This document shows, in pieces, positions 4,625-45,121 of a stretch of DNA of 64,000 nucleotides. A program made the position numbers and the translations under genes. Under the pieces are notes generated by a model that was not told where the DNA came from, searched no databases, and worked only from the letters and a program-made list of their open reading frames with translations. The first letter of the stretch is position 1, and each line of letters begins with the position of its first letter. Origin of the DNA: a bacterium (lineage in GTDB: Bacteria; UBP6; UBA1177); NCBI GenBank assembly GCA_017405875.1, contig JAFQZM010000025.1:62001-126000 (forward strand). Direction: 5' to 3'.

Positions 4625-6738
4625 TATTTGTAGTAGACCTCAAGTCCGTTCGGGAACGGCTGGACGTTGTAGCTCGAAAGATCGGTTATAACGGAAGGCT
4701 GACCGGTGAATGACTGTATGTAACTGCCGGAAGTAGTCGGTTTGAAAGCGATGTTCGCGTTGCCGTAGACCGTGTTCGAGTTGAAACTCATATTATAGTT
4801 CGTACCTTTTTCTGATTTCGACTTACTGAAACCGAGAGCCGTCTGCGTTGTGAGACTTGCAGCACCGTCGGAATCGAACGAACCGCCCATGCCGCCGTTG
4901 ATCTGGCATTCAACAACGATTACGCCGCCCGAGATGGTCATCGTACCGTTGCTGTCGATACCGTCAACATCGCCGCTTCCGGTTTTGATGTAGTGGAAAC
5001 CGCCTTCAATGGTGAGATAACCTGTGCTGCTGCTTCCGCCCATACCGCCGCCCTGACCGGGACCGCCGTGACCTGCACCAGGACCGAAATCATCGGAAGA
5101 AGAGCCGTCGGCACCGCCCGCCGCGTTCCAACCGTCGTCTCTGCCGTAAACAGCCGTTACACCGCCGTAAACATTGATATACCAAGCCTCGAATCCTTCG
5201 TAAGACATCGTCACGTTGATCGTTCCCGCCAGGATCCTGAGTTCATTGTCGGCATGGATCCCGTCATCATCCGATGCGATCTCAATATCACCGCCTTTGA
5301 CATAGACAAGACCGCCGGAATGGATCGCGTCGTCTCTCGAGTTGATCTTGATCGTTCCGCCGAGGATCTTGATGTAGACGACATTTGCGTTGAGGTCTTC
5401 ATAACCGGAAACCGTATCCGGAATACTTGCCTTGATCCCTTTAAGAGAAGTGTCACCGGAATATTTCTGGGAGGAACTGCCGCCTCCGCCCCAGCCGCTG
5501 CCGCTGCTGGAAGTCGTGATGACACTGCCGCCGCCGGAAGTAACATCGACCGTTCCGTCTTTGATTTCGATGTAAGAAATGGCGTGGATTCCGTCACCGT
5601 TTGTTGCGTTTACGGTAACTTTGCCGCCTTTTACTTTGATGTATCCTTTGATATTTTCATAAGCTGCATCGTTTATCTCAGAGCCGTCATCTTCAACAGA
5701 AGCAAGTTCAAGAGCCGTTGTGTTGTCCGATTTGATGCCGTCGCCGCCGGAGGTGACAGAAATGTCTCCGCCGCGGATAACGACTGAATCCTTGCCGCGG
5801 ATGCCGTCGTCTTTAGCAGTTACGACAAGCGTTCCGCCGTCGATGTCAAGGTCGTCTTTTGATGAGATAGCGTCGTTGCAGTTACCGTTTATTGTGAGTG
5901 TTCCTTCGCCTGCAAGGATAAGATCTGACTTGCTGTAAAGGGCGGCCGCCGCATCAGGATTAGACGCGTCGTCTGTTGCGATAGTGTAGTTCGATCCGTC
6001 GGAAAGAGTGTTCTGCGTTCCGCTTACGGTGAAGATCCTGACATCTTTCGCCCCTTTTACCATAAAAGGAGAACTGCTTGAACTCGTGATGTCCGCTCCG
6101 TTTAGGACTACATGAACGACATCTTTATCGACAGTCTTATCGACATCTACCACGATACCGCCGTTGGAAAGGGTTCCGTCGATCTCGAAAACGCCCGATG
6201 CCGTGATCGTTGCAGTTGCGCCTGAAACCGTTACATCGTCAGGATTTGCACCGTCGACTGTGATCGAAGTACCGTTCAAATGGATGTAAGTTACATCCGC
6301 GCCGTCTCTCGGATCGCTGTTGTCGCCTGTGCTGCCGGTGTCATCATCAGTATCAGTCGGATCAGTCGAGTCTGTCGGATCGGTCGGATTTGTCGGAGTT
6401 CCCTGACATGCGGAAACATCCCAGCCCAGACAGTCTGATTTGCATACCGCATATCCGCCGGTGTAGCCGGAATCGATCGCAGCGCACTCCGCGGCATTAC
6501 CGTCGCAGACTTCGCCAGAATCAGTCTCTCTGTTTCCGCAGGTTTCACTGACTGTACTTGTGTCGGTGTCGCTTGTCGAGTCGGAATCAGTGTTGTCATC
6601 AGCTGACCCTGAATCGGTGTCGGTGCTGCCTGAGCCCGAATCAGTGTCATCACCTGTGCTGACTTTGCTTGAACCGCCGCAAGAAGCAAGTAGCAAAATC
6701 AAAGCAGCTGCAGATAAAATCAGAAAGAATTTTTTCAT
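4624..6738 (-). CDS. Lipoprotein with Cthe_2159-type beta-helix (DUF4353)
   Basis: A 704-residue surface lipoprotein. The signal peptide MKKFFLILSAAALILLLASC places the lipobox Cys at 20. A Ser/Asp/Thr linker follows (about 22-70), then a disulfide module (CGNRETDSGEVCDGNAAEC... DCLGWDVSAC) of the type common in myxobacterial secreted proteins, and a second Thr/Pro/Asp linker. The large C-terminal domain repeats GGxIxVxSxDDGIHADxxxxIxGG units, the pattern of Cthe_2159-like carbohydrate- and calcium-binding parallel beta-helices. Gly/Ser-rich insertions interrupt the coils. The start at ATG 6738 is chosen because GGAG lies six bases upstream; TTG 6750 would put the lipobox off register. Polysaccharide binding is inference. 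Confidence 0.85.
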   Translation of the reverse strand: MKKFFLILSAAALILLLASCGGSSKVSTGDDTDSGSGSTDTDSGSADDNTDSDSTSDTDTSTVSETCGNRETDSGEVCDGNAAECAAIDSGYTGGYAVCKSDCLGWDVSACQGTPTNPTDPTDSTDPTDTDDDTGSTGDNSDPRDGADVTYIHLNGTSITVDGANPDDVTVSGATATITASGVFEIDGTLSNGGIVVDVDKTVDKDVVHVVLNGADITSSSSSPFMVKGAKDVRIFTVSGTQNTLSDGSNYTIATDDASNPDAAAALYSKSDLILAGEGTLTINGNCNDAISSKDDLDIDGGTLVVTAKDDGIRGKDSVVIRGGDISVTSGGDGIKSDNTTALELASVEDDGSEINDAAYENIKGYIKVKGGKVTVNATNGDGIHAISYIEIKDGTVDVTSGGGSVITTSSSGSGWGGGGSSSQKYSGDTSLKGIKASIPDTVSGYEDLNANVVYIKILGGTIKINSRDDAIHSGGLVYVKGGDIEIASDDDGIHADNELRILAGTINVTMSYEGFEAWYINVYGGVTAVYGRDDGWNAAGGADGSSSDDFGPGAGHGGPGQGGGMGGSSSTGYLTIEGGFHYIKTGSGDVDGIDSNGTMTISGGVIVVECQINGGMGGSFDSDGAASLTTQTALGFSKSKSEKGTNYNMSFNSNTVYGNANIAFKPTTSGSYIQSFTGQPSVITDLSSYNVQPFPNGLEVYYK

Positions 6739-6803
6739 AAGCTTCTCCAATTAATAATGAGCAAACGAATGATTTTAGGCTTTTTCAAAAAAAAGAAAAG
6801 AAA

Positions 6804-8673: not shown

Positions 8674-8700
8674 CTTTACCTGCGGAATTTGGAGGCTGAG

Positions 8701-10095
8701 ATGACAACTTACCTGACTTCTTTTATCATTTCGTTTATTTTTGTTTGTTTCGCGACCCCAATACTCATAAAAATCGGACTCAAATTCGGATTCGTCGATC
8801 AGGTGAACCAGCGCAAGATCCACCGCGGTGCCATTCCCAGGATCGGCGGCATCGGCATTTCGCTCGGAACACTCCTTCCCATATTTCTTCTCTGCTTCTT
8901 TTTTCACACCGGTATCATTTTAAACACAACAAATAACATTGTGCTATATTTCGTAGGCGGTCTTGCGATAAGCCTGCTCGGACTTTTCGATGACATCAAC
9001 GGAATCAACGCAAAAATAAAGCTGCTTTTTCAGACAGCCATCGCTTTTCTGGCAACACAGTACGGAGCGCTTGTCGAAACGCTGCCGATGCCGTGGGGAA
9101 GACTTGAACTCGGCATTTTCAGCTATGTTATAACTATTTTCTGGATCATAGGCATCATCAATGCGTTCAACCTCATTGACGGAATGGACGGATTGTCTTC
9201 CGGAATCACCCTCTTTTCATCGCTTACTCTCGCAGTGCTCGCAATCGTGAACGGATACCTGCCGACAGCTTTAGTCGCACTCGCTCTCGCAGGCGCAGTT
9301 ACCGGATTTCTTATCTACAACTTCAATCCGGCACGAATTTTCATGGGCGACTCGGGCTCGATGTTCATCGGCTATATTCTGGCGATCCTTTCACTGCGGA
9401 GCCAGTCGAAAGCTCACGCCGTCGTTTCGATACTGGTTCCGATAATCGCAATGGGTGTGCCGATCCTCGACACGACTCTTGCATTTATGCGCCGGATGAT
9501 GAGACATCAGTCGATTTTTGCAGCCGACAAGCAGCATATACACCATTTTCTGCTTTCTCTCGGCTTCAACCAGCGCAAAACGGTACTCATTCTCTATTCG
9601 ATTTCGATTCTGTTCACGGTTCTTTCGCTGCTCATGATCTTCAACAAAAATATCGATACATTCCTTATCGTCCTCGTTTTTGCGATAATCATATTCGTCA
9701 TCATCACGAAACTCGGTTACATCGAAATGATTTACGGAAGATTCAGAGTAAAAAAGGAAAATTCTCTTGAAAAACACATTGAAAACTTTTTCATCGACAG
9801 AATTTCACTCGCAAAAGACGAAGATATTTTTTCCGGTCTCCCGATAAAAGGTTTCGACATCCTCGACATTAAAGGAAACAACCTTTTCTCGCAGGGCGAA
9901 AAGGACAAAATCAACTTTTTCGACATTTCGGCGAGACGTTCGCGTATCGTCCGCCTTTACTGGACTGAAAACGTTCCGATAATCGGTGCGCGCGAGTCTG
10001 CTATGCTCATACTCATGTCAAAAACTCTCGTTGCAAAATTCGCCCCCATCAGCGATGAAGACGAGAAAAAACTTTTAGCTGATATCAAAGAATAA
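8701..10095 (+). CDS. Undecaprenyl-phosphate sugar-1-phosphate transferase (WecA/TagO type)
   Basis: A polytopic membrane enzyme that loads a sugar-1-phosphate (often GlcNAc-1-P) onto undecaprenyl phosphate to start a surface polysaccharide. Family motifs are present: HRGAIPRIGGIGI near 40, the DD pair at 97-98 (FDDING), NLIDGMDGL with Asp 160, MGDSGSMFIGY, and the HIHH cluster starting at 279. About ten to eleven hydrophobic segments occupy residues 1-345. A soluble C-terminal tail of about 120 residues is unusual for WecA and unrecognised. ATG 8701 has GGAGG five bases upstream; an upstream TTG is rejected. MraY is a separate gene at 22279. Confidence 0.9.
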   Translation: MTTYLTSFIISFIFVCFATPILIKIGLKFGFVDQVNQRKIHRGAIPRIGGIGISLGTLLPIFLLCFFFHTGIILNTTNNIVLYFVGGLAISLLGLFDDINGINAKIKLLFQTAIAFLATQYGALVETLPMPWGRLELGIFSYVITIFWIIGIINAFNLIDGMDGLSSGITLFSSLTLAVLAIVNGYLPTALVALALAGAVTGFLIYNFNPARIFMGDSGSMFIGYILAILSLRSQSKAHAVVSILVPIIAMGVPILDTTLAFMRRMMRHQSIFAADKQHIHHFLLSLGFNQRKTVLILYSISILFTVLSLLMIFNKNIDTFLIVLVFAIIIFVIITKLGYIEMIYGRFRVKKENSLEKHIENFFIDRISLAKDEDIFSGLPIKGFDILDIKGNNLFSQGEKDKINFFDISARRSRIVRLYWTENVPIIGARESAMLILMSKTLVAKFAPISDEDEKKLLADIKE

Positions 10096-10854
10096 TCAGA
10101 GACTTGTAAGAACAACAGGACCGTTTGCGGTGATCGCGACAGTGTGCTCGAACTGGCAGCTCAGTTTGCCGTCCATCGTAACGACTGTCCAGCCGTCGCT
10201 CAAAGTGCGAGTTTTGTAGGTTCCTTCGTTTATCATCGGCTCGATAGCTACGACCATTCCCTCCTGAAGCCTGAGTCCGTCACCGCGCTTGCCGTAGTGC
10301 GGGATCGCAGGATCTTCGTGAAGATGGACGCCTGTTCCGTGCCCGACGTATTCTGTAACGACCGAAAAACCGTTGCTTTCGGCATACTCCTGAATAACCG
10401 CGCCGATGTCTCCTATGTGGTTGCCCGGAATGCACTGCTCTATTCCGAGTTCAAGGCATCTGCGGGTAACTTCGACCAGCTTTTTCGCCTTGTCGGTAGC
10501 ACCCGGCATGACGTAGGTCATAGTGCTGTCACCGATATAGCCGTTAAGCGTAACGCCGCAGTCGACCGAAAGAATGTCGCCGCGCTGGATTATCTTCGCC
10601 TTTCTCGGAATGCCGTGAACGACCTCGTTGTTTACTGCGATGCATGTCGCGTGAACATAATCGTCAACCGATTTGAAAGTAGGATGACCGCCGTGTTTTT
10701 TGATGAATTTATCGGCAAAAGCATCTATCTGCAAAGTCGACACGCCCGGTTTGATATAGGTTTTAAGTTCGTGGTAAAGTTCTGCAAGAACGTGACCGGC
10801 AGCTTTGATCTTTTCGATCTGTTCCGGTGTTTTGATGATGATTTCTTCACACAT
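10096..10854 (-). CDS. map: Methionine aminopeptidase, type I
   Basis: Removes the initiator methionine from new proteins using two metal ions. In 252 residues the pita-bread fold motifs appear in order: HATCIAVNNEVVHGIP, SVDCGVTLNGYIGDSTMTY (two Asp ligands), GHGTGVHLHEDP (His ligand), EPMINEG (Glu ligand) and QFEHTVAIT (Glu ligand). It lacks the type II insertion and any N-terminal zinc extension. ATG 10854 follows GAGGCTGAA; the longer TTG reading is unsupported. Its stop codon abuts the stop of the wecA-like gene with no base between, so the two converge. Confidence 0.96.
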   Translation of the reverse strand: MCEEIIIKTPEQIEKIKAAGHVLAELYHELKTYIKPGVSTLQIDAFADKFIKKHGGHPTFKSVDDYVHATCIAVNNEVVHGIPRKAKIIQRGDILSVDCGVTLNGYIGDSTMTYVMPGATDKAKKLVEVTRRCLELGIEQCIPGNHIGDIGAVIQEYAESNGFSVVTEYVGHGTGVHLHEDPAIPHYGKRGDGLRLQEGMVVAIEPMINEGTYKTRTLSDGWTVVTMDGKLSCQFEHTVAITANGPVVLTSL

Positions 10855-10949
10855 TTCAGCCTCAAAAAGCAAATTAGCAAAAAAACGGGGGATTATAGTC
10901 TTAAATCCGGCAGTTGCAAGCAGGCATAAGAGAAATGTCGCAAAATTTC

Positions 10950-10977: not shown

Positions 10978-11013
10978 AACGCGCGATTTTTTGGATAAAA
11001 ACTGGAGGAAAAA

Positions 11014-14000
11014 ATGAGAAGATTTTCGGTTTTTTTGGCAGTTCTCGCGTCACTCGTTTTCATTGTGAGCTGCGGTGACGGAAACGGCAGCAGCAGCGGC
11101 AAAAAACAGGGCGAGCTTTACGGCGCATGTTATCCGAACAAGACCTGCAACGACGGTCTTACATGCGACGAGGAAAACGACGTCTGTCTGCCTGCGGGTA
11201 ATGACGAAGACTCTGAGGCTGACAGCGATACATCTGATGTCGAGACACCGGATGAAGATGCGGATACCGGCGATACGGAAGAGCCCGATGAAAAGGATGA
11301 TTCCGACACATCGGACACCGAAGAGCCCGATGAAAAGGACGATTCCGACACCGGCATTCCTGTAACTCCGGACGAAAACAACGATTCCGACGATACTCAG
11401 GAGCCGGAAGATAACGACATTCCGGAAACTCCGGATGAAACTCCCGACAACGAAACTCCCGTAAATTCCGAAGCGACCGAAAACCACAAGATTTCCGGTA
11501 TATTCCAAGTCGGAACAGGCGTTTCAGGAATAGAGGCTGCTCTTTTTGAGTGCGGCAGCACCGAAAAAATCGCTTTTGCCAACACCGATGCAAAAGGAAA
11601 ATTCTCATTCAATGCAGATATAACGGCTTCCAAAACATACTGCATAAAAGCGGGAGATTTCGCAAGCTGTTTCAAGGGCTTAAGCGACCACACGGCGAAC
11701 ATCTCCGAAATCACGACTGCGGCATATCTCCTCGACAAGACCTGTGCTGATTTAAGAAAAAGTGAAACAAAAATAAGAACTTACGCAAAGCTCGGAACCG
11801 GAGAATGGCTGGGCGAGCTTGATTATTCGAAGCTTTCCGGCATCAAAGAAGGCCTGAAACTTTTCTCGAACTACCTCAAAACGACAAACAACAAGACTCT
11901 TTCCGAAAAAATCGCAGAAGACGCAAATAAAGAGACTCCAGAATTTGCAAAATTCTTCAACGGCTTCAGAATTTCGGCAAATAAAACCGAAATAGTTTTA
12001 GACGAAAGTACCGACAACAGCACAACTTTCAGCGCTGAAGGCGGCAGCACGAAAATCGCATCCGGTTTCAAAATCACTTGGACTATGAAAAACAAAAACG
12101 CCGAAGCCGCAACATACAAATTCACGACTTCTACTCCCGGCGAATACGTCGCACGTGCAACACTCGTTTCGGGAAACACCACTCTTTCCGACGGTTCAGC
12201 AAGCGTTCTCTATCTCCAGAAAAAGAAAAGCGGCTCGATCTACCTGAACGGAAAATCGAAAAACATCTCCCAATATATCGATAACGGCATCTACGTCGTC
12301 ATTCCCAAGAACACCGTTGTCAAAAAGGACGGAAATGTTGTAACCAAGATAACTTATGACATTCTTTCCGCCGGCGGCAATCAGGTTTCGCGTCTTAAAT
12401 TCTACCCTGAAGGCGCAGTTTTCGAAGGCGATTCGATGTATTTCGTCTACGAACTCGGCACGGTTTACGGTGGCGATCCCATCATGCTCTCGGCAAAGAG
12501 AACGAATACTGACGGCACTGTCGATGTTCTCAATTCGGCTGCCGGAGACCCGATTATGATGGCTGCGGCAGGAGATCCGATAATGACAACAGCAGCCGGC
12601 GATCCGATAATGACGGCTGCTGCAGGAGATCCCATAATGACAAGCGCTGCAGGTGATCCGATCATGACAAGCGCAGCCGGTGATCCTATCATGAATGCCG
12701 CTGCAGGTGACCCGATAATGACTTCGGCTGCGGGAGATCCGATCATGGCGGCTGCCGCAGGTGACCCGATAATGATGGGAACAAGCTCCAGCGCAATGAT
12801 TTCGCAGACGAACCACTATTCGATTTTCACTGTCGAATCTGCAAATCTTCCCGTTTCGGTCGACGCTCTTCTTGACAGATGGTGCGACGGCTCATTCTAC
12901 CGCAACTATTCTCCGGTTGCTTTCATCGAAGCAGGCTTCAGACAGTTCAAACCTTCAAGCACGCTTCTTCCCTATCTGACTTGTGAAGGCAGAAAGTTCG
13001 GTGACCTCGGCAACGACCTTTACGAACTTATCAATAAGCAGGTCGGCTACCAGCGCAACCTCAATCTTATCGAAAATATTTTCTTTGTTTCCGAATTTTA
13101 CAACCGCATGAAAGTCAGAAGGGAAAGCGGCGAAGTCGCAGCCGTTAAGAACGGTCTGGAACTTCGTTCTGCAATCGCGGCACTCTACACTGCAACGACT
13201 TCATACAACAGAAGCGCGACTCTTGCCGATTTGTTTGATTCTTCGATGATTCCTCTCACTTACAGCGGCGTAACTCCCGCCGACTATACGGCAAAGGCAA
13301 AAAGCTCGATCACCGGAAATTCCGGTTCAGGCGATATATACACCGCAACGAAGAAAGAGATGATGATTTTCGCAAACTACATCACTACATCATCTAAAGG
13401 GCCCGATTTCGACTCTGTTGAATCGGTTCTCACGCCCGATCAGCTCGTCTGTGCATGGTTTGACAGCAATACCGAACCGCAGAACTGCAATAAAATCTAC
13501 ACTCTCAATGATGCAGGTCATGTAACTCTGGGCGGCACCGAATTAAGCGCAGCGGAAGCAAATGCCATCTTCTCCGAACACTTCATGCCGATGAACAGCA
13601 GACTGAGTGACGAAGAAAAACTCGATCTTTTCAGAATTTTCTATCTTGCACTTAAATATGCGGGAACAATTTTCTACGGCGGAAGCGACATCGACGAGCT
13701 CAACGACGCACTGCTTAAAACGGCATACCTCGTTTTTGACGGAATCGACGACAACGCGAAAGCGGTCAGCATAGTCGATACTTTCGACGCTTCGGCTCAC
13801 ACTGTTGCAGTTCTTGACGGCGCGGAAATGGCGACGAGACCCTACATCCAGAAACTCAGCGCACTCACCGACCAGATTTCTCTCAAAGTTGCTCCGGCAA
13901 GCGCAGACATCGAAAAAGTTCTCGTCAGCATCGAAGGAAACGAATTCGATAAAGTTCAGGAAAATACAAGAACTTACTACAAGCCGAAAGGCTCTTTGAA

Positions 14001-17000
14001 AGAAAAATCGATAGTCCTCACTCCGGGAACGCTTGCACAGGGCGAAAAGGCGCTGAAAGATCTGCTCGGAAGCGAAGACGTCGATTCTCTCGGCAATATC
14101 ACCGGAAAAATGACGATAGTCGTCAACTCTAAGATTTCTGGCAAAACCTATTCGACGCAGAAAGCTTACGAATTTTTCGTAAACGGCGAAAGTGACGGCG
14201 TAAATTCGAAGGAAGTTCCTGCAAACATCCAGATCCGCGTCAACGATTCAAACGGCAATGCGATTCCCGACAACGCAAATCCGACGATAATCCTCAATCC
14301 GGGCAACAGAGTATTCTATTCCGCCGGCAACCTCATCAGCATTGAAAACCTTACTCCCGCGGCATATACGATCGACGCTTTTGCAGACGGTTACTATGCA
14401 AAGAATGTCAGCGTAAACGTTCCATCGGGAGCAACGTTCGATGTCGAAATCAGACTTGACGAGGAAACTACGGGTTCGGCTGATGCAAATCTCGAACTTT
14501 CGGTAAAAATCGACACCGCAAAACATCCGTCGAAAGTCTATATTCAGATTTACAACGATGACATGGATCTCGTTGCGAACGAGACTGCAAAATTCAACGG
14601 CGAAGGCAGATACGAAACAATTAATATACCGATGGGTTCAGGAAGATACACTCTCCTTGCTGTCGGCGAAGACATGTACAACTACCTTGAAGCGATAACG
14701 CTCTACGAAGGAAACAACTCAAAGGAAATCACGGTCATCGCAAAGAACGCATGCGGAAACGGCATTGTCGATTCTGCTGAAGAGTGCGAACCTTCACAAA
14801 GCGAACCTGTTCTCTGCGGCACGATCTATCCTGCTGCTCCGAATCCCAATGAATATGCGACCTGTGATCCTGATACCTGCACATTCAACAAGACTGCCTG
14901 CGGAAAAGCTGCTTTCTGCGGCGACGGCATAATCGACAGCCCTGCAGAACACTGCGACGGCGGCTCAAAGGCATGTGCGGAAATAGCGGGTTCCGGCGAT
15001 TCCGGTTCTGCTCCGTGCGCAACTGACTGTTCGCGCTACATCACTGAAAACAACTGCAGGAAAACGACTGAAAGCTGCGGAAATCTCAAGGAAAACGCAG
15101 TCTGGAACGACGGAGAGGGCAAGTTTACTCAAACTCATGACGGCGCAAACTGGCTTCCGGCGACAAAATCTGCTTCTTACGGTATAACCAAAGAAGAATG
15201 CGTCTTCTCCTGCAAAAAAGGTTACAAGTGGGATGGCAGTGACTGCATCCCAAGCCCGCTTTCACTCGCACTTATCTGCACCGGCGAAACCGACTGCTTC
15301 AGCAATACTGATGAAACCGAGTGCCCCGCTTACGGCACAGTTTTCTTCGGTCAGGATGCACAGTATGCACAGACCGGCTTCTGTACACCTCACAAACTGA
15401 CTGCGGCAGTAAACGGCATTGTAAAAGACGCATACACTCATTACGAGTGGCAGGCTGTTTCAAGCGAAGAAATGAACTGGGATGATGCAAACGACTACTG
15501 CTCTCATCTCAACGACGAAAGCGGCTCATCGGCACTCTGGAGAATCCCGAGCCCGTCTGAACTTCTTACCATTGTCAACAGCGGCACGGCAAGTCCTGCA
15601 CTTGATGACAAATTTACAGCAAGAGGTCACACTTTCTGGGCAAGCGAGGACAGCAGAAACAGCGAAAAGGCATGGATGCTCGGAGAGAACGGAGAAATCA
15701 CAAGTGTTGATAAAGCAGATACAAACAGCGTAATCTGCGTAAAACACGGCTTCGATACCGTGCAGAACCGCTTCAGCGCTACTGCCGAGACAGTTAAAGA
15801 TTCTGACAGCGGTCTCATGTGGCAGAAACAGCCTGTTGCTTCGGTAACATGGGAAAAGGCGCTTTCATACTGTGAAGAAGTTTCGACTACCGACAAATTC
15901 GACTGGCGTCTTCCCAACAGAAACGAACTTGCTTCACTCATAAACTACGAAAAGAACAACGGCGCAATGAGCGACTTCCCGGGAATCGCTGCAAAAGGCT
16001 TCTGGACTTCGACTACTTCGGCTGCTTCGACAGGCTCAGCAACCGCAGGAAATGAGGCGTGGACAGTTGATTTTGCAAGCGGAAAAATCGAACCGGCTGA
16101 AAAGAACGACACCAAATATGTCATCTGCGTCCGCAACGACGAACCGTGCTTCGGTGACGAATGTCCGAACACATGCGGCTTTGCTCCCTGCAAAGGCATG
16201 GCTAATTCAACCGGACTCTGCACCGCGAATGACTACAGCTTCACATGCGGCTGCAAATCGGGATTCAACTGGAATCACGGCAAGTGCCTGCTTGACACCA
16301 CGCGCTACATTGCATGCGAAGGTTTGCCTGAAAACGCAATCTGGAACACCGTTTTCGGTATCAGCCAGAGCTACGACGGAAACAACTGGTATCCGAGCAA
16401 TATCGGCTCGTTCAACAAGATTGCAAGCACGACCGAATGCAGATTCATCTGCGCAACGAACTACAGCTGGGATGCCGACGAAGAAAAATGTCTCCCGAAA
16501 TCGAGAGTTGCACAGTGCTCCGACAAAACTCCTTACTCCGACTGGAACGTGGTTTCCAAAATTTCGCAGACATGGGACGGCGAAAAGTGGCAGCCTTCAT
16601 CAACTTCCGAATACAACGAAGAATCAAGCGAAGAAGAGTGCAGATTCGTATGCAAGGAACACTACACTTGGGACAGCGAAAATAAAATCTGCAAAGGCGA
16701 GACTCGTGAAAACGAGCCGTGCACCGGACTTCCGGCAAATGCACACTGGTGGAATGAACCGGCAACGATCACGCAGACCTGGACGAACGGCGGCTGGGCT
16801 CCGGCATCGGCAGGACGCTACAACGACTCCCAGGCGGACAATGAATGCTTCTTCGGATGCAACGAAAACTACTCTTGGAAAAACAATGCGTGTGTTGCTG
16901 ATGAAAAATTCAATGTTGCATGTAACGACCTGACACTTCCCGACAATGCGGAATGGAACCAGTACAACCAGATAAACCAGACCTGGAGCGGAGAAAAATG

Positions 17001-20000
17001 GCTTCCGACAACTGAAGGCAGCTACAACGAAACCCCAGATCCCGCTTACTGCCGCTTCAAATGCAAAGCTCACTACAACTGGAACGGCTCTACCTGTTCG
17101 GCAGAAACGAATATCGCAACATGTACCGGAAAACCGTCAAACGCTGAATGGAACACGGCTTCAAGCATTATTCAGTACTGGGACGGAGAAAAATTCTCTC
17201 CGACAGCTACAGCTTCATACGGCGAAACTCCGACAACAGAAGAATGCCGCTTCAAATGCAATGAAAACTATACTGTTTCCGACGATAGAAAATCCTGTAA
17301 ACCATCGACAAGAACAATAGACTGTGAAGGACTTCCCGAGAACGCAATTTGGAACACAGGAGCATCTTGGGGAAGGATCACTCAGACTTGGAGCGGATCC
17401 GACTGGACTCCGTCACTCTCAGGAGTGTTCAGCGAAACTCCGAGTACTGAAAACTGCGTATTCAAATGCTTTGACAACTACGAGTGGCAGGGAGGTCGCT
17501 GCGTTGCCAAAAAGCAGACTTCGATATGTACCGGACTTCCTGAAAACGCGCAGTGGAACAGTGTCGCAACAGTACTTCAGGAATGGAAAGAAAACGGTGA
17601 GTGGGAACCTAGCGATATCGGCATTTACAGCGAAGAAGAGAGTCTGACGGAATGCCGCTTCAAATGCAGGGAAAACTTTACATGGGACGGAAAGAAAACA
17701 TGTGTCGCAAACACAAGGTTTATTGAATGCAATCCCCGCCCGGCAAACTCGCTCTGGAACGAAGTTCACTTTATAACGCAGACTTGGAACGGCTCAGAAT
17801 GGCTGCCATCGCTCGATCCTGAATACAGCGTTTCTCCAAGCAATAGCGAGTGCAAATATAAATGCGATACAGGATACTATCCGCTTGACGGCAGATGTGT
17901 CGCAGATCCGTGCAATGATAACGGCTACAACCCGTGCAGCGAGGTCAATAATTCAACGGGAGTATGTACCGCAAACAATAATGTATTTCTTCCTTATTCC
18001 TGTGAATGCGCAGATGGTTACTCCTGGCACGGCAAGACAGGCTGCCGCAGTAAAAAAGCAACTCTCGGCAATATCTGCACAGATGCAGTGAAATGCTTCA
18101 ATAACGAAGAGGAGATTGCATGCCCCTCGCAGGGAAACGATTTCTACGGTCAGGATGCCCAGTATGCCGAAATGGGCTACTGCACACCGAAGATGTTGGA
18201 AGTTAAAGAGACAATAGTCGGAGCTGAAACCCAAAAAACCGTTATTGACAAAAACACAGGTCTTGAATGGCTGAAATCAAGATCAGACGAATCCTATAAA
18301 CAGGAAGATGCTGTAACTTACTGTGACGGTCTTGTATACGGCGGACATGCCGACTGGAGACTTCCTTCAGCCAAAGAGCTGATGACGGTGCTCAGTTACA
18401 CCCAAATACTGCCTGAATTAGATAGAGAATACTTTGATAACATCTACGTTGCCTGGACGAGCACTCCCGATTTGAATGAATCGAACAATGCTGTTCTATT
18501 GTCATTCGGACAGTTCAATTCTGAAATGAAAACGAATGAATTTGGGGCTGTCTGCGTCAGAGGAAATGCTCTGCCTGAAAGCGACTTTTCAGCTTTTACT
18601 GTAAACGGAGATGAAATCGTCAAAGATTTAACCACAGAACTTTACTGGCAGAAAACTTACGTAACCGAAAAAACATGGCCGGAACTTCTTGAATACTGCG
18701 AAAATCTTGAATACGGCGGTTTCAGTGACTGGAGAATGCCGAATATCAGCGAATTACGTTCCCTCATAAATTATGAAAAGTCCTATCCTGCTTCGGATTT
18801 TCCTGATATGCCGTCTGATTGGCTTATTTCCTCCACCACTCAGTTTTCTGCAGATACGGTGGAAGGAGTTCTTTTCGAAACAGGTCTCGAATCCGGATTA
18901 TATAAATCCGGTTCCGCAGGTCGCGTCCGCTGTGTCCGCTCCGATCTGTGCGATGAAGGTGAATTCCTGTTCGGGAAAAACTGTGTCGCAAGCCCGTGCA
19001 AGGCAAATTCGTGCGAAATAGAACATTCTGACGGGATCTGCACTCCGCTAAACCTTGACGATTTTTCATGCGGTTGCGACGAAGGATACAGCTGGAACGG
19101 TTCAAAGTGCATAAACAATCCGTGTTTCAACAACCAATGTTCTGCAATCGAACACTCTGACGGAATCTGCACTCCGCTGAATGATACGGAATTTGCTTGC
19201 GGCTGTGCTGACGGCTATTTCTGGAAAGGTTCGAGATGCATGACAAAGCATGCTTTCGGTAACATCTGCACAGGTCAGAACAAGTGCTATAACAATTCGG
19301 AAGAAATGTATTGCCCTGCGAACGGGGAAGATTTCTTCGGACAGGATGCTCAGTATGCAGCAAAAGAAAGATGCACTCCGCAAAGTTTTAGTGACGATGA
19401 CCCTGACAGCAACCATCCTGAAGAAATTATCGTCATTGACAACAACACAGGGCTTATGTGGCAGAAAAATATTCCTGATCTTAAGCCTGACTGGTATCAT
19501 GCAGTAGCTTATTGCTCCGATTTGGAATATGCCGGATACAGCGACTGGAGACTGCCTAAACCTGAAGAATTTTTGTCAATAGCTGATCTTAAAAACACCG
19601 ACCCTTCAATCTTCACATACCCTGGACCGGGTTATTTCTCGCCGTGGACATCCGCATCAGTTGCCAAATCAATAGGCAATGCATTTATAATGGAATTCTC
19701 AAGTATGACTACTAATATGGCTTACACCGGCAAAGAGGCGTCCGATTCTTTTGATGTTGTTTGTGTCAGAGGAAACATTCTTCCGAAGAGCCGGTTTGTC
19801 GTTTCGAGAGAAAACGGTTACGAAATTGTCACGGATACAGTAAGCGGACTTATCTGGCAGAAAACATCCCTCGGTTGGCAAACATGGAAAGATGCTCTTG
19901 CATACTGCGAAAATTCTGAATATGCCGGATTCACAGACTGGAGAGTTCCGAATCTCAAAGAAGCATTCACTCTTGCAGATTTTACCAAAACAAGCGGTAT

Positions 20001-20157
20001 CGCTACAAACTTCCCTGATATGCCTGATATTGCTTTATGGACATCCAACACGATAGAGGACAATGTTCAAAGTGCTTATGTTCTGGATTTTGGTTATGGA
20101 ATAGGCGGCGGCTATATGGAAAAAACCGATTATCAGTCTGTCCTCTGCGTCCGTTAG
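11014..20157 (+). CDS. Giant modular lipoprotein with GDPIM repeats, W/C modules and six DUF1566 domains
   Basis: A 3047-residue outer-surface lipoprotein of unknown function. Order by residue: lipobox Cys 20; CYPNKTCNDGLTCDEENDVC (about 41-60); Asp/Glu/Thr/Pro linker to 155; a carboxypeptidase-regulatory-like beta domain (160-215); nine 9-residue AAGDPIM repeats (508-588); a helical region (600-1000); another beta-sandwich (1069-1150); DUF4215-type disulfide repeats (1246-1350); one tryptophan/cysteine module (1353-1415); a DUF1566 (Lcl) pair (1417-1709); an EGF-like unit; eight tandem W/C modules (1766-2298); an EGF-like unit; a second DUF1566 pair (2350-2644); two EGF-like units; and a third DUF1566 pair to the C-terminus. 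DUF1566 halves show TGLMWQ, YC, SDWRLP and CVR. Role in adhesion or predation is inference. Confidence 0.9.
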   Translation: MRRFSVFLAVLASLVFIVSCGDGNGSSSGKKQGELYGACYPNKTCNDGLTCDEENDVCLPAGNDEDSEADSDTSDVETPDEDADTGDTEEPDEKDDSDTSDTEEPDEKDDSDTGIPVTPDENNDSDDTQEPEDNDIPETPDETPDNETPVNSEATENHKISGIFQVGTGVSGIEAALFECGSTEKIAFANTDAKGKFSFNADITASKTYCIKAGDFASCFKGLSDHTANISEITTAAYLLDKTCADLRKSETKIRTYAKLGTGEWLGELDYSKLSGIKEGLKLFSNYLKTTNNKTLSEKIAEDANKETPEFAKFFNGFRISANKTEIVLDESTDNSTTFSAEGGSTKIASGFKITWTMKNKNAEAATYKFTTSTPGEYVARATLVSGNTTLSDGSASVLYLQKKKSGSIYLNGKSKNISQYIDNGIYVVIPKNTVVKKDGNVVTKITYDILSAGGNQVSRLKFYPEGAVFEGDSMYFVYELGTVYGGDPIMLSAKRTNTDGTVDVLNSAAGDPIMMAAAGDPIMTTAAGDPIMTAAAGDPIMTSAAGDPIMTSAAGDPIMNAAAGDPIMTSAAGDPIMAAAAGDPIMMGTSSSAMISQTNHYSIFTVESANLPVSVDALLDRWCDGSFYRNYSPVAFIEAGFRQFKPSSTLLPYLTCEGRKFGDLGNDLYELINKQVGYQRNLNLIENIFFVSEFYNRMKVRRESGEVAAVKNGLELRSAIAALYTATTSYNRSATLADLFDSSMIPLTYSGVTPADYTAKAKSSITGNSGSGDIYTATKKEMMIFANYITTSSKGPDFDSVESVLTPDQLVCAWFDSNTEPQNCNKIYTLNDAGHVTLGGTELSAAEANAIFSEHFMPMNSRLSDEEKLDLFRIFYLALKYAGTIFYGGSDIDELNDALLKTAYLVFDGIDDNAKAVSIVDTFDASAHTVAVLDGAEMATRPYIQKLSALTDQISLKVAPASADIEKVLVSIEGNEFDKVQENTRTYYKPKGSLKEKSIVLTPGTLAQGEKALKDLLGSEDVDSLGNITGKMTIVVNSKISGKTYSTQKAYEFFVNGESDGVNSKEVPANIQIRVNDSNGNAIPDNANPTIILNPGNRVFYSAGNLISIENLTPAAYTIDAFADGYYAKNVSVNVPSGATFDVEIRLDEETTGSADANLELSVKIDTAKHPSKVYIQIYNDDMDLVANETAKFNGEGRYETINIPMGSGRYTLLAVGEDMYNYLEAITLYEGNNSKEITVIAKNACGNGIVDSAEECEPSQSEPVLCGTIYPAAPNPNEYATCDPDTCTFNKTACGKAAFCGDGIIDSPAEHCDGGSKACAEIAGSGDSGSAPCATDCSRYITENNCRKTTESCGNLKENAVWNDGEGKFTQTHDGANWLPATKSASYGITKEECVFSCKKGYKWDGSDCIPSPLSLALICTGETDCFSNTDETECPAYGTVFFGQDAQYAQTGFCTPHKLTAAVNGIVKDAYTHYEWQAVSSEEMNWDDANDYCSHLNDESGSSALWRIPSPSELLTIVNSGTASPALDDKFTARGHTFWASEDSRNSEKAWMLGENGEITSVDKADTNSVICVKHGFDTVQNRFSATAETVKDSDSGLMWQKQPVASVTWEKALSYCEEVSTTDKFDWRLPNRNELASLINYEKNNGAMSDFPGIAAKGFWTSTTSAASTGSATAGNEAWTVDFASGKIEPAEKNDTKYVICVRNDEPCFGDECPNTCGFAPCKGMANSTGLCTANDYSFTCGCKSGFNWNHGKCLLDTTRYIACEGLPENAIWNTVFGISQSYDGNNWYPSNIGSFNKIASTTECRFICATNYSWDADEEKCLPKSRVAQCSDKTPYSDWNVVSKISQTWDGEKWQPSSTSEYNEESSEEECRFVCKEHYTWDSENKICKGETRENEPCTGLPANAHWWNEPATITQTWTNGGWAPASAGRYNDSQADNECFFGCNENYSWKNNACVADEKFNVACNDLTLPDNAEWNQYNQINQTWSGEKWLPTTEGSYNETPDPAYCRFKCKAHYNWNGSTCSAETNIATCTGKPSNAEWNTASSIIQYWDGEKFSPTATASYGETPTTEECRFKCNENYTVSDDRKSCKPSTRTIDCEGLPENAIWNTGASWGRITQTWSGSDWTPSLSGVFSETPSTENCVFKCFDNYEWQGGRCVAKKQTSICTGLPENAQWNSVATVLQEWKENGEWEPSDIGIYSEEESLTECRFKCRENFTWDGKKTCVANTRFIECNPRPANSLWNEVHFITQTWNGSEWLPSLDPEYSVSPSNSECKYKCDTGYYPLDGRCVADPCNDNGYNPCSEVNNSTGVCTANNNVFLPYSCECADGYSWHGKTGCRSKKATLGNICTDAVKCFNNEEEIACPSQGNDFYGQDAQYAEMGYCTPKMLEVKETIVGAETQKTVIDKNTGLEWLKSRSDESYKQEDAVTYCDGLVYGGHADWRLPSAKELMTVLSYTQILPELDREYFDNIYVAWTSTPDLNESNNAVLLSFGQFNSEMKTNEFGAVCVRGNALPESDFSAFTVNGDEIVKDLTTELYWQKTYVTEKTWPELLEYCENLEYGGFSDWRMPNISELRSLINYEKSYPASDFPDMPSDWLISSTTQFSADTVEGVLFETGLESGLYKSGSAGRVRCVRSDLCDEGEFLFGKNCVASPCKANSCEIEHSDGICTPLNLDDFSCGCDEGYSWNGSKCINNPCFNNQCSAIEHSDGICTPLNDTEFACGCADGYFWKGSRCMTKHAFGNICTGQNKCYNNSEEMYCPANGEDFFGQDAQYAAKERCTPQSFSDDDPDSNHPEEIIVIDNNTGLMWQKNIPDLKPDWYHAVAYCSDLEYAGYSDWRLPKPEEFLSIADLKNTDPSIFTYPGPGYFSPWTSASVAKSIGNAFIMEFSSMTTNMAYTGKEASDSFDVVCVRGNILPKSRFVVSRENGYEIVTDTVSGLIWQKTSLGWQTWKDALAYCENSEYAGFTDWRVPNLKEAFTLADFTKTSGIATNFPDMPDIALWTSNTIEDNVQSAYVLDFGYGIGGGYMEKTDYQSVLCVR
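12535..12777 (+). repeat. Nine 27-bp tandem repeats encoding (S/A/T)AAGDPIM(M/T/N/A)
   Basis: Nine contiguous in-frame units, each nine codons. The core AAGDPIM is invariant in protein, while the DNA differs at synonymous positions (GGA/GGC/GGT, GAC/GAT, CCG/CCC/CCT). The array is therefore kept by protein-level selection rather than being a very recent slippage product. A degenerate GGDPIM occurs just upstream at about residue 489. Confidence 0.95.
16309..17907 (+). repeat. Eight tandem ~65-residue Trp/Cys modules
   Basis: Protein repeats with the plan C-x-G-L-P-E-N-A-x-W-N, then I-T-Q-T-W-x-G-x-x-W-x-P, Y-x-E-x-P, E-C-R-F-K-C, N-Y-x-W-x-x-x-x-C-V-A. Four cysteines per unit suggest two disulfides. 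A ninth copy lies apart at 15070-15255, and two more occur in the lipoprotein gene at 37129. I do not recognise a named domain. Confidence 0.85.
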
Positions 20158-20251: not shown

Positions 20252-20281
20252 GCAGTGGTTTTTTGTACAAAAAGAGGTTCT

Positions 20282-22282
20282 ATGAAAGAAAAAAAGATAA
20301 AATTCATCTTCACGGGCGGCGGAAGCGGAGGTCACGTAAGCCCCGCTCTTGCAGTCGCAGCCGAACTCAAAAAAACTCTTCCGGAAGCTGAAATCACCTA
20401 CATCGGCGTTAAAAACAAGGCTGAAGCGCACATGGTTCCGAAAGCGGGAATCCCGCTTAAATTTGTGAAAAGCGCACCTCTTCCGCAGGGAAAATCGCCT
20501 GTTTCTCTGTTTAAATTCGCGATGACGATGTTTTCCGGGCTTTCTAAAGCGGCTCTGCTCCTGCTCAAAATAAGACCTAAAGCAGTTTTCGCTACCGGCG
20601 GATTCGTAAGTGCACCTACCGTATTTGCCGCATGGATACTGCGCAAGGCGACATTCGGGCTCTTCAAAACGAAGATAATGATCCACGAATCAAATACCGA
20701 TCTCGGAAAGATGAACAAGGCAGCGGCAAAAGCGGCTGACAAAGTTGCGGTATCGTTCTCCGAAACGATAAGACACCTGCCGAAAAACAAAGGATTTTTC
20801 TCAGGATACCCGGTAAGAAGTTCTATCGCTCTCGAAGAAAGAGCGGCGGCGCGTAAAGAACTCGGAATTCCGGAAAATGCATTCGTCATTTTTGCTTTCG
20901 GCGGCTCGCAGGGATCGCGCACCATCAACCGCGTTCTGGCAAATTCGGCAAAAAAACTTCTTGAAGATCCGGACACTTACATAATCAACGGCGCGGGAAA
21001 ACCTTTCGGAAAAGTTTACGAATACCACGGTTTCAACGATGTTTCCGGAATTCTGGAAAAACAGAATCTGGGAGAAGCGAAAAAGAGATATATTCTCCGC
21101 GATTTCATCGACAACATGGGGCTTTACTACGCCGCGTCAGACCTGCTTGTAATCAGAGCCGGAGCGGGTTCGATCGTCGAAGTGTGCCGTCAGGGAAAGC
21201 CTTCGCTCATAATCCCGATAAGCAATATCGGAAACGATCACCAAATTGGTAACGCCCGCTTTATCGAACGCGCCGGAGCGGCAGCAGTAATATATGAGAG
21301 AACCGATCCCTTGAACGGAATCGACATCGCGTTCGCTGATTCAGCCGAATTCTGCGAAACCGTTTCGAGATTAAGGGATGACAAGCTCAAACTTGCCGAA
21401 ATGTCGGAAGCTGCAAAGAATATTTTCCCCGGCAATCCGGCTGAAATAATCGTCAAAAACCTGCTTTATCTCTGTCACCTCGGCGAAAAACCGGCTGAAA
21501 TAAAGGGAACGGAATTCGTGACTGACCGCGTTTTAGGGCTCAATTCGACAACGCTCGAAAAATTTCTGCAGAAAACGAAAACGGGCGCAGAAAAGCCGCT
21601 CGAAGCTGACGAAGTGAAACTAATAAAAAACAAGATCGACATGCTTTTCTCGTCTCACAATCCGGTCATCAAGGCGCGCGCGTGCCGCTCTTCTGGAATC
21701 TTAGGTTACGCCGAAGTCATTCCGCTCATAATCCGCTATGCAGCAGACAAAAACAGCGCTCCCTTCTTAAGCAGAGACGCTTTTGCAGCACTGAAGCAGC
21801 TAACTCTCATCTGCGAAACCGGAAGACGCGAAGACCTTTTCAATGCGATACTTTCAGGGCTTGAAAATTCATACTACGAGACCCGTTTTTCTGCTGAAAA
21901 GTGCATTCCTGCCTTTGCCGGACACTTCGGAATCAGCGAAAACGAACGCGGAAAATTTTTGGATCTGCTCTTTAAAAACATGTCCGACCACTGCTTTGAA
22001 GTGCGTGCGGAAGCTGTTCTTGCGGCGGCGCAGATTTCAACCGATACCGGAAATCTGCTCGAACACTTCTCAAAACTCTATTTCGATGCAGTCTGGAAAG
22101 TGCGGATGGCGCTTCTTCAGGCCTTTGAAATCCTCATAAAAAGAGGAGTTCTCGACAAAAAAACGGCTGCAGCCGAAATCGACAGAATCCTTATCACGAG
22201 CAACGGATACACGACCGAATACGAGCTTAAAAAAGAGTATAATTCGGTCATGGAACTTATTTCACAGGAGAAAAAATCATGA
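20282..22282 (+). CDS. murG: MurG glycosyltransferase fused to a C-terminal HEAT-like domain
   Basis: Residues 1 to about 385 of 666 form MurG, which transfers GlcNAc from UDP-GlcNAc to lipid I at the inner membrane face. Visible motifs are TGGGSGGHVSPALA (11-24), ATGGFVSAP, HESNTDLGKMNK, FGGSQGSRTIN, and RAGAGSIVEVCRQGKPSLIIPI near the UDP site, with GNDHQIGNA close by. Normal MurG ends near 360. Here about 270 further residues form HEAT-like helical pairs (NPVIKARACRSSGILG, YETRFSAEKCIPAFAG, CFEVRAEAVLAAAQI, WKVRMALLQAFEIL). ATG 20282 follows AGAGG. Its TGA overlaps the mraY ATG as ATGA. Confidence 0.93.
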   Translation: MKEKKIKFIFTGGGSGGHVSPALAVAAELKKTLPEAEITYIGVKNKAEAHMVPKAGIPLKFVKSAPLPQGKSPVSLFKFAMTMFSGLSKAALLLLKIRPKAVFATGGFVSAPTVFAAWILRKATFGLFKTKIMIHESNTDLGKMNKAAAKAADKVAVSFSETIRHLPKNKGFFSGYPVRSSIALEERAAARKELGIPENAFVIFAFGGSQGSRTINRVLANSAKKLLEDPDTYIINGAGKPFGKVYEYHGFNDVSGILEKQNLGEAKKRYILRDFIDNMGLYYAASDLLVIRAGAGSIVEVCRQGKPSLIIPISNIGNDHQIGNARFIERAGAAAVIYERTDPLNGIDIAFADSAEFCETVSRLRDDKLKLAEMSEAAKNIFPGNPAEIIVKNLLYLCHLGEKPAEIKGTEFVTDRVLGLNSTTLEKFLQKTKTGAEKPLEADEVKLIKNKIDMLFSSHNPVIKARACRSSGILGYAEVIPLIIRYAADKNSAPFLSRDAFAALKQLTLICETGRREDLFNAILSGLENSYYETRFSAEKCIPAFAGHFGISENERGKFLDLLFKNMSDHCFEVRAEAVLAAAQISTDTGNLLEHFSKLYFDAVWKVRMALLQAFEILIKRGVLDKKTAAAEIDRILITSNGYTTEYELKKEYNSVMELISQEKKS

Positions 22283-23375: not shown

Positions 23376-23813
23376 ATGGCTAAAAAGCAGGAAATGTACT
23401 TCAACGGAGACGATTGCAAATTCTGCAACGGGATGTGCTGCCGCTACGTCACGATAGATATCGAAAAAGAGCCGCGTTCAGAAGAGCGTTTTGACGAAAT
23501 AATCTGGTGGCTTTTTAACCCGAATATCAAAATTCTGAAAAACGGGCATTTCTGGTCGATCCTCGTCATGGGAAAGTGCGAAAATCTCAATGAATCGAAT
23601 AAGTGTGTGATCTACGAAGCGCGCCCCGATCTCTGCCGCGAATACCCGCCGGAAGAAGACGGCTGCCACTTCGACAGCATCAAAAGGCTCGAAGGAATTA
23701 TCTTCAACACCGCTGAAGAGCTTCTCACCTATTTAGCCGTCGAGCGCAAAAAAGAGTGGGCGAAAAAACGGCTCGAAAATATGAAAAACCAACTTCTGCA
23801 GGTAAAAAAATAA
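23376..23813 (+). CDS. YkgJ-like cysteine-cluster protein
   Basis: A 145-residue cytoplasmic protein of the CxxCxxxxCC family (putative zinc- or iron-chelating domain, formerly UPF0153). The cluster is CKFCNGMCC near 14-22, followed by single cysteines at GKCENLNESNKCVIYEARPDLCREYP and GCHFD. The CVIYEARPxxCRxYP segment is diagnostic. The C-terminus is a charged helix. It begins two bases after the mraY stop and its TAA shares a base with the next gene's ATG. Its role is unknown in general; possibly Fe-S or metal handling. Confidence 0.85.
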   Translation: MAKKQEMYFNGDDCKFCNGMCCRYVTIDIEKEPRSEERFDEIIWWLFNPNIKILKNGHFWSILVMGKCENLNESNKCVIYEARPDLCREYPPEEDGCHFDSIKRLEGIIFNTAEELLTYLAVERKKEWAKKRLENMKNQLLQVKK

Positions 23814-24556
23814 TGAGTTCAGCAAAATTTTTCCTGTTTGCTGCAATTTTGAGCGTCTTTTTTCCGGTTTCGGCAAAATGCGTCCTTTTTGCAGACCGTG
23901 ACGGCGACGGATTCGGCAGCGAAAAAGCGGTTTTCGACTATGACTGCTCCGACGACGACGGGATTCCGACAGGCTATTCGCGCAAAGGCGGCGACTGCAA
24001 CGACAACAACCGCTACGTCAACCCGAAAGCGGAAGAACTCTGCAACGGAGTCGATGACAACTGCGACGGCGTAGTCGATCCTGAAAACGCAAAAGACTGC
24101 AACAGATACTACAAAGATTTGGATTATGACGGATTCGGAACGGACAAATCACGCTGCCTGTGCGTTTCCGAAGGCGATTTCCGCGCACTCGAAAGAGGCG
24201 ACTGCAACGATGACAATCCGAAAATCCACCCCGACGCAAAAGAGATATGCAACGACCTTGACGACAACTGCAACGGCATAGTTGACGAAGGTGAAAACGT
24301 CGCGAACTGCCGTCCGTTCTACCGCGACAGCGACGGCGACGGATTCGGAATCGGCGACGACAGCAGGTGTCTATGCAAGGCTGACGGGATTTTCAGAGCC
24401 GAAAAAACGGGCGACTGCAACGATAACAATCCCGAAATTTATCCGGGAGCATACGAGCATTTCGACAGGCTTGACAACAACTGCAACGGCATAATTGACG
24501 AAAATCCAGGCAGCCTTCCACCACCGCCGCCAAGACCTAAACCTAGAAATCACTGA
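23813..24556 (+). CDS. Exported MopE-like metal-binding repeat protein
   Basis: A 247-residue secreted protein with signal peptide ending FFPVSA at about residue 21. The mature chain is about two and a half tandem units of the MopE-like metal-binding motif: DRDGDGFG, GGDCNDNNRYVNPKAEELCN, GVDDNCDGVVD, with the second and third copies DLDYDGFG... DDNCNGIVD and DSDGDGFG... DNNCNGIID. The Asp/Asn-rich loops resemble calcium sites and the cysteines should be disulfide-bonded. The tail is proline-rich (PPPPPRPKPRNH). The short ATG start at 23813 shares a base with the previous TAA. Such repeats abound in myxobacterial secretomes. Confidence 0.85.
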   Translation: MSSAKFFLFAAILSVFFPVSAKCVLFADRDGDGFGSEKAVFDYDCSDDDGIPTGYSRKGGDCNDNNRYVNPKAEELCNGVDDNCDGVVDPENAKDCNRYYKDLDYDGFGTDKSRCLCVSEGDFRALERGDCNDDNPKIHPDAKEICNDLDDNCNGIVDEGENVANCRPFYRDSDGDGFGIGDDSRCLCKADGIFRAEKTGDCNDNNPEIYPGAYEHFDRLDNNCNGIIDENPGSLPPPPPRPKPRNH

Positions 24557-44947: not shown

Positions 44948-45121
44948 TTGTCACCTCTGAACAAAAAGCAGCCCAATATAGCCGAAAAGCGGAATTTTTC
45001 GATAAAAATAAGAGCTCAAAAATCACGACGGGCTTTTTTTAACCGGTCAAAATACAAAATATTTATTTTTTAAAATTTTTCCGTATAATTTTTCGTCTTT
45101 GGCTTATTTATGAGGTGGATC

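Follow-up and report, generated by a model that had tools for sequence, protein, structure and literature searches.

A 3047-residue lipoprotein of an uncultured UBP6 bacterium combines a conserved base with variable pairs of lectin-like heads

Is an open reading frame for 3047 amino acids (aa) in a metagenome assembly one genuine gene, and what might its product do? The frame starts with ATG and runs uninterrupted over positions 11014-20157 (+) of the window, by which we mean the whole stretch of 64,000 nucleotides analysed here. Its genome (G000; 2.51 Mb, 47 contigs, 99% complete) belongs to UBP6, an uncultured candidate phylum known here from metagenome-assembled genomes (MAGs) alone, mostly ruminant. 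The original prediction, made from the letters only, described a single mosaic surface lipoprotein with an order of parts of its own, suggestive of a long surface fibre.

The frame begins as expected of a lipoprotein. GGAGG lies immediately 5´ of the ATG (10993-11020), the N-terminus, MRRFSVFLAVLASLVFIVSC, carries the lipobox IVSC with Cys20, and a homologue (L133) has the lipobox MVSC. The protein, called the giant below, contains 113 cysteines. Its parts and flanking genes are the following.

8689-10929 (+): left flank, genes up2 (Glycos_transf_4) and up1 (without Pfam match); from Pfam
11014-11073 (+): signal peptide and lipobox (aa 1-20, IVSC, Cys20); from sequence
11191-11478 (+): acidic linker rich in Asp, Glu, Pro and Ser (aa 60-155), with direct repeats D4 and D11; from sequence
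11479-12540 (+): N-terminal region (aa 156-509), 91% identity in L133, beta-rich by eye only
12538-12783 (+): nine tandem 9-residue GDPIM repeats (aa 511-587); motif search
12790-13764 (+): helical domain, conserved base (aa 593-917); AlphaFold2 at moderate confidence and identity across the genus
13765-14727 (+): tandem beta-sandwich region of the base (aa 918-1238); model, weak CarboxypepD_reg match, Ig-like fold matches
14728-15054 (+): Cys-rich CGNG...CGDG repeats, 'DUF4215-like' in the original prediction; from sequence, without Pfam match
15076-15270 (+): W/C module W1; module alignment
15256-15414 (+): element q1 (CTGE..C...CPAYG..FFGQDAQYA), ahead of a head pair; direct repeat D2
15415-15741 (+): head 1, Lcl_C type A; Lcl_C profile and A/B models
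15787-16134 (+): head 1, Lcl_C type B; Pfam and A/B models
16141-16308 (+): EGF-like linker E1; pattern
16315-17922 (+): stalk of eight tandem W/C modules, W2-W9; module alignment and AlphaFold2
17923-18213 (+): EGF-like E2 and element q2; repeats and pattern
18235-18561 (+): head 2, Lcl_C type A; Lcl_C profile and A/B models
18616-18939 (+): head 2, Lcl_C type B; best match in its own genome is C14b, a target of a diversity-generating retroelement (DGR), at 54% identity
18940-19398 (+): EGF-like E3 and E4 and element q3; direct repeat D9
19429-19770 (+): head 3, Lcl_C type A; Lcl_C profile and A/B models
19825-20154 (+): head 3, Lcl_C type B, forming the C-terminus (SVLCVR); without TR match or adenine bias
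20255-22282 (+): right flank, gene dn1 (GT28 glycosyltransferase with HEAT repeats); from Pfam

This anatomy confirms the predicted one in most respects. Ten GDPIM motifs were found, nine of them in tandem at 9-residue spacing (aa 511-587; DNA 12538-12775); the motif is common to the giant and other paralogues of the same genome, and its number differs between homologues, reaching 20. An RTX-like reading of these repeats was rejected, PDB matches having only E 0.08-0.5. Pfam search of the giant returned six stretches of Lcl_C (PF07603, formerly DUF1566; 424.7 bits against a cut-off of 34.9, E 2.8e-129) and little else, in keeping with the three DUF1566 pairs foreseen. An AlphaFold2 model of the base, of moderate confidence (pLDDT 61.5), supports the helical domain by a helical stretch at aa ~616-917; this domain is 60-92% identical across most of the genus. 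In the beta-sandwich region (aa 918-1238), Pfam gave a weak match to CarboxypepD_reg. The labels 'DUF4215-like' and 'EGF-like' had to be softened to the level of a pattern: neither family has a Pfam match at E<=1 in the giant, and the likeness consists in Cys spacing and motifs only.

The nine W/C modules, of about 65 residues each, do align as predicted, with Cys, Trp, Asn, Gln and Pro invariant. Three of them modelled together by AlphaFold2 reached pLDDT 94.6. The module has neither a Pfam match nor a PDB sequence match, and a fold search against PDB gave nothing significant, the nearest structures being EGF- and complement-type modules at E of at least 0.07. Of the 25 genomes of the order, 23 have matches to the module, as do, weakly, two of three other genomes of the phylum; none was found in 33 genomes outside it. 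A phage or plasmid origin of the stalk was rejected, since phage and plasmid records held no match and none was confirmed in IMG/VR. Judged by this distribution, the W/C module appears to occur almost only in UBP6, and it offers structural work a new stalk module with a confident model.

Could the giant nevertheless be an assembly chimera, pieces of unrelated lipoprotein genes fused at repeats? The original prediction named this as a finding that would overturn it, and the assembly is a metagenomic one, with contigs in G004, G007 and G010 ending inside or beside giant genes and with a different right flank in G006, where the left neighbours are present. Homologues of the same layout and shared flanking genes make this explanation extremely improbable. 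Of 15 genomes, 13 contain the base region, 12 of them with long matches, in up to five copies per genome; complete base-bearing frames measure 2327-4117 aa. They are laid out like the giant: GDPI motifs come first, then the base with its helical and beta parts, the Cys repeats and one W module; head pair 1 follows, and after it several W modules in a row and further head pairs. Complete giants contain 4-17 W modules and 1-5 head pairs; a more distant one (L152, 40%) has 17 W modules and a single Lcl_C pair. A search for homologous architectures thus showed that the order is not peculiar to our giant but constitutes a genus-wide scaffold, with a conserved base and a distal half of varying module number.

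Synteny points the same way. The pair up2/up1 adjoins a giant in G006 and G007, and in G004 the contig end follows it; dn1 adjoins a giant tip in G004 and G007. The homologue in G004 (L151) has the same right neighbour and module count as our giant, and G007 keeps both flanks, on two contigs each ending inside the giant. Moreover, the base is single-copy in G000, and the strongest DNA matches of the giant to its own paralogues are about 70-83%, both of which speak against fusion. The single lipoprotein frame is therefore real: its ORF is intact, lipobox and GGAGG are in place, and most genomes of the genus have a homologue built alike. In G001 and G002, up1 lies directly beside dn1 and the giant is absent, so the gene is either present or absent at this site.

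Two loci deserve separate mention. On contig C47 of G006 (L133/L169), the left flank matches the window and the right one differs, dn1 lying on C32 without a giant alongside; this is either a rearrangement inside the gene or a misassembly. On contig C11 of G001 (L150), a giant is broken, by frameshift or assembly error, into overlapping frames for 1556 and 1437 aa; its DNA is 98% identical to that of the intact gene L135 of G009.

The six Lcl_C domains of the giant form three strict A-B pairs (ABABAB). Models of the two types were built from the giant itself and thus presuppose its alternation, but not that of the other giants, nearly all of which alternate when scored against these models. 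The base-to-head-1 model, whose pLDDT of 61.5 renders fold matches tentative, matches the tandem C-type-lectin-like domains of Endo180, the mannose receptor and PLA2R (probability 0.99-1.00), as well as Ig-like pilin and adhesin stalks. Lcl of Legionella, after which PF07603 is named, is an adhesin for GAG whose head is C-type-lectin-like, and Lcl_C is present in many protein types, its general role being unclear (PMC11162425). Like the giant, Lcl of Legionella pneumophila has an elongated stalk that ends in a head of this Pfam family. Lcl is secreted, however, has one head per chain and trimerizes via a collagen-like stalk, whereas the giant is a lipoprotein whose six Lcl_C domains, paired as A-B, sit on a stalk of W/C modules. 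The Lsa25 family of Leptospira (NF047850), a surface adhesin, has a domain similar to Lcl_C; its profile scored 77 bits against the giant (E 1.7e-21), below the cut-off of 260, and matched in the Lcl_C part alone.

The reading we favour, with a probability of about 0.6, is that the giant is an outer-surface adhesin with exchangeable lectin-like heads, both its surface display and its binding being predicted from sequence. A lipid anchor and the conserved base (GDPIM repeats, helical domain, beta-sandwiches) would hold head pair 1 near the cell, and the disulfide-bonded W/C stalk would carry the further head pairs, each composed of a q element and C-type-lectin-like Lcl_C domains of types A and B. 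The giant would then be exposed on the surface, its heads would bind a ligand, probably glycans or glycoproteins of the host, feed or other microbes, and head variety would alter what the cell sticks to. Omp85 is encoded in the genome, which points to an outer membrane and not to exposure of the giant as such. Of the functions first proposed for a long surface fibre, adhesion fits the large lipoprotein, the disulfide-rich stalk, the lectin-like domains and an Omp85-bearing genome. Prey contact is not supported: named relatives come from ruminant stomachs and nothing suggests predation. These relatives, identified through the conserved base, are MAGs, mostly ruminant, along with two UBA assemblies labelled UBP6 (UBA1177 and UBA1209), and it is on them that the placement of G000 in UBP6 rests; some relatives are deposited as 'Spirochaetales'.

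L133 was rejected as a full positional orthologue, and because it is syntenic at the left flank only, L151 and L210 served as references for head comparison. Between the giant and L151, dN is ~0.14 in the base, ~0.15-0.19 in most stalk modules (0.22-0.25 in W1 and W9, 0.42 in W5) and 0.15-0.25 in head 1; in heads 2 and 3 it reaches 0.45-0.55, with dS similar: most segments lie at about 1-2 and a few are saturated. Relative to this positional orthologue, amino-acid change in heads 2 and 3 is hence 3-4 times that in base and stalk; with synonymous sites near saturation in distal heads, replacement and fast divergence look alike in some pairs. Over all giants, mean best identity is 0.44 for distal heads and 0.67 for the base.

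Two pairs of giants bear on exchange between species. L138 and L139, from different genomes, differ in the base by dS ~0.4 and in the last ~600 codons by 0-0.04, and their 96-99% identity runs ~900 bp beyond the gene before falling to 83%. L135 and L150 share ~98% identity over the gene and 77% beyond. These patterns show that distal parts or whole genes have been transferred between species. The best relatives of single modules also differ by genome, W5 leading to G010 (80%) and W6 to G004 (79%). Positive selection on head 1 was not seen (dN/dS 0.12-0.27 against L133). Recent gene conversion from paralogues of the same genome was rejected as well, no long or near-identical tract having been detected (best matches about 70-83%).

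The giant is one member of a large family. A profile search of the contigs of G000 gave 132 Lcl_C matches, and a model built in this analysis assigned Lcl_C to 68 ORFs, ~4.7% of the assembly; 47 of these start with a lipobox-like sequence by a loose pattern. Among 14 control genomes a single one matched, below the cut-off, and other members of the genus have at least 47 to at least 110 matches per genome among the matches listed. Two further Lcl_C genes lie in the window. The one at 37129-39342 (+) encodes 737 aa with three Pfam stretches and, at 37279-37455, a linker of EPTT repeats; the other, at 45110-46096 (+), encodes 328 aa with one Pfam stretch. On contig C45 (L081, 14001-34000), Lcl_C genes for ~1060-1560 aa adjoin in an array, several with GDPIM repeats.

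Genome G000 also contains two DGR loci, L037 (C14:1-7945) and L038 (C46:29000-40375), with RTs 86% identical in amino acids. Each comprises an RT, a 128-aa ORF in the position of Avd (between VR and TR), a TR and Lcl_C targets. PF00078 scores above its cut-off at both loci, the RT carries the motif IGNLTSQ, and its best PDB match is 8ub7 (E 6e-42), which we take to be the DGR RT of a Bordetella phage; the RT was unconfirmed in an IMG/VR search. The 128-aa ORF of one locus matches 23S_rRNA_IVP weakly (E 0.023) and has no significant PDB sequence match. Seven VRs were identified at the 3´ ends of seven smaller Lcl_C genes at six loci, in the last Lcl_C domain. Compared with TR, they differ at 35-61% of A positions and 0-14% of non-A positions (p 3e-5 to 2e-10), a pattern indicating that the two DGRs rewrite the last Lcl_C of these seven paralogues by adenine-specific changes. 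Some DGR targets share W modules with the giant. What the original prediction missed was the family size, the pair of DGRs and the contrast between conserved base and variable heads.

The giant itself was considered as a DGR target and rejected, its heads having no TR-specific pattern. Its terminal head mismatches TR at 24/46 A and 36/72 non-A positions (p=0.48), and the best of its six heads (p=0.004) has 32% non-A mismatches, within the family background. Judged by these mismatches, its heads are not current DGR targets, and rewriting of the last Lcl_C holds for the family and not for the giant gene. The terminal head of one giant homologue (L148, G005) is VR-like, with mismatches at 22/46 A against 8/74 non-A positions (p=8e-6). 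The TR-mutable columns, marked by the AAY codons of TR, are the most variable ones in 205 non-VR Lcl_C domains (3.49 versus 2.37 bits, p=1e-4); because loops at the surface are variable in any case and the domains are related to one another, the match supports, but does not prove, a shared binding face.

The variability of heads bears on two other explanations. The heads might capture polymers, binding plant or mucin polysaccharide and fixing the cell on feed or mucus, with a variety that follows diet and not partners. The rumen habitat of named relatives would suit this, as would a Cthe_2159-type carbohydrate-binding protein (PF14262) encoded upstream at 4624-6750. Polysaccharide ligands alter little, however, while heads 2 and 3 alter fast; the variable columns coincide with DGR-rewritten ones, and Pfam detects no CAZyme or dockerin domain in the giant. 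We regard polymer capture as rather unlikely. Less probable still is that heads vary chiefly in order to evade phages, protozoal grazing or host antibodies, binding being secondary. The large paralogue family, the interspecies exchange of tips and the presence or absence of the gene at its locus do resemble variable surface antigens, but escape alone would not lead one to expect a conserved stalk and head pair 1, and surveyed VR-containing regions of DGR targets have C-type-lectin folds mostly tied to attachment (PMC8144416).

An adhesin with exchangeable heads remains our preferred reading, and the small DGR-driven paralogues and the recombining giants would represent two routes to a changing repertoire of one head domain. 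In a wider scenario, possible though on the whole doubtful, UBP6 would operate two tiers: DGRs make Lcl_C heads on small lipoproteins, recombination brings them onto giant fibres, and tips are exchanged between species over a fixed base, the stalk being a new disulfide module family more or less confined to the phylum. One head domain links hypermutated small receptors with recombining giants, and the idea that DGR variety feeds larger adhesins becomes testable. A 2.5-Mb genome with ~5% devoted to proteins with lectin-like domains, many of them with a lipobox, and with two DGRs and giant multi-headed members, suggests a lifestyle of changing attachments, which would matter for rumen colonisation if feed, protozoa or host surfaces are what the heads bind.

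DUF1566 proteins are already known as DGR targets (PMC4159848, PMC6642488). DGR variable proteins such as TvpA of Treponema, the Legionella variable lipoprotein and DUF1566 targets of the human microbiome (PMC4159848) share head family or fold with the giant, and the smaller paralogues in G000 are targets of the same kind, with RT, Avd-like ORF, TR and VRs. Unlike them, the giant has heads without TR-VR relation, whose variety arises via divergence and recombination, and it has internal head pairs besides a terminal one, whereas VRs of the family lie in terminal heads. Genomes with DGRs and dispersed lectin paralogues have likewise been described: in cyanobacteria (PMC7517822), DGR-internal and remote variable proteins occur together with many further paralogues per genome. 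Those proteins are mostly predicted to serve in cytosolic signalling (kinases, caspase-like), while UBP6, an unrelated phylum, has many predicted lipoproteins with modular stalks. Novel, as far as our searches reach, are a giant lipoprotein with many heads, the W/C module, the pairing of a conserved base with a variable and transferable tip, and the family size in UBP6.

Some smaller observations concern the RT. Short ORFs corresponding to its last ~70 residues (aa ~414-491), the rest being absent, occur on C18 (L053:4752-4967), where the ORF lies directly behind a VR-bearing gene, and on G002:C22, G003:C1 and G008:C75; they are either relics or an independent part of the cassette. In the complete RT frames, L037:3254-4729 (-) and L038:4718-6187 (-), an insert-like stretch (LPLTQGEVSRSDGEG) and parts of the N-terminus resemble dispersed repeats.

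Near the giant, 4624-6750 (-) encodes a protein of 708 aa in which two stretches are of the Cthe_2159 carbohydrate-binding type (PF14262, E 2.7e-79). Also in the window, 23756-24556 (+) is a frame for 266 aa, which has three copies of the MopE-type metal-binding motif (PF11617) and overlaps the end of one for a CxxCxxCC protein.
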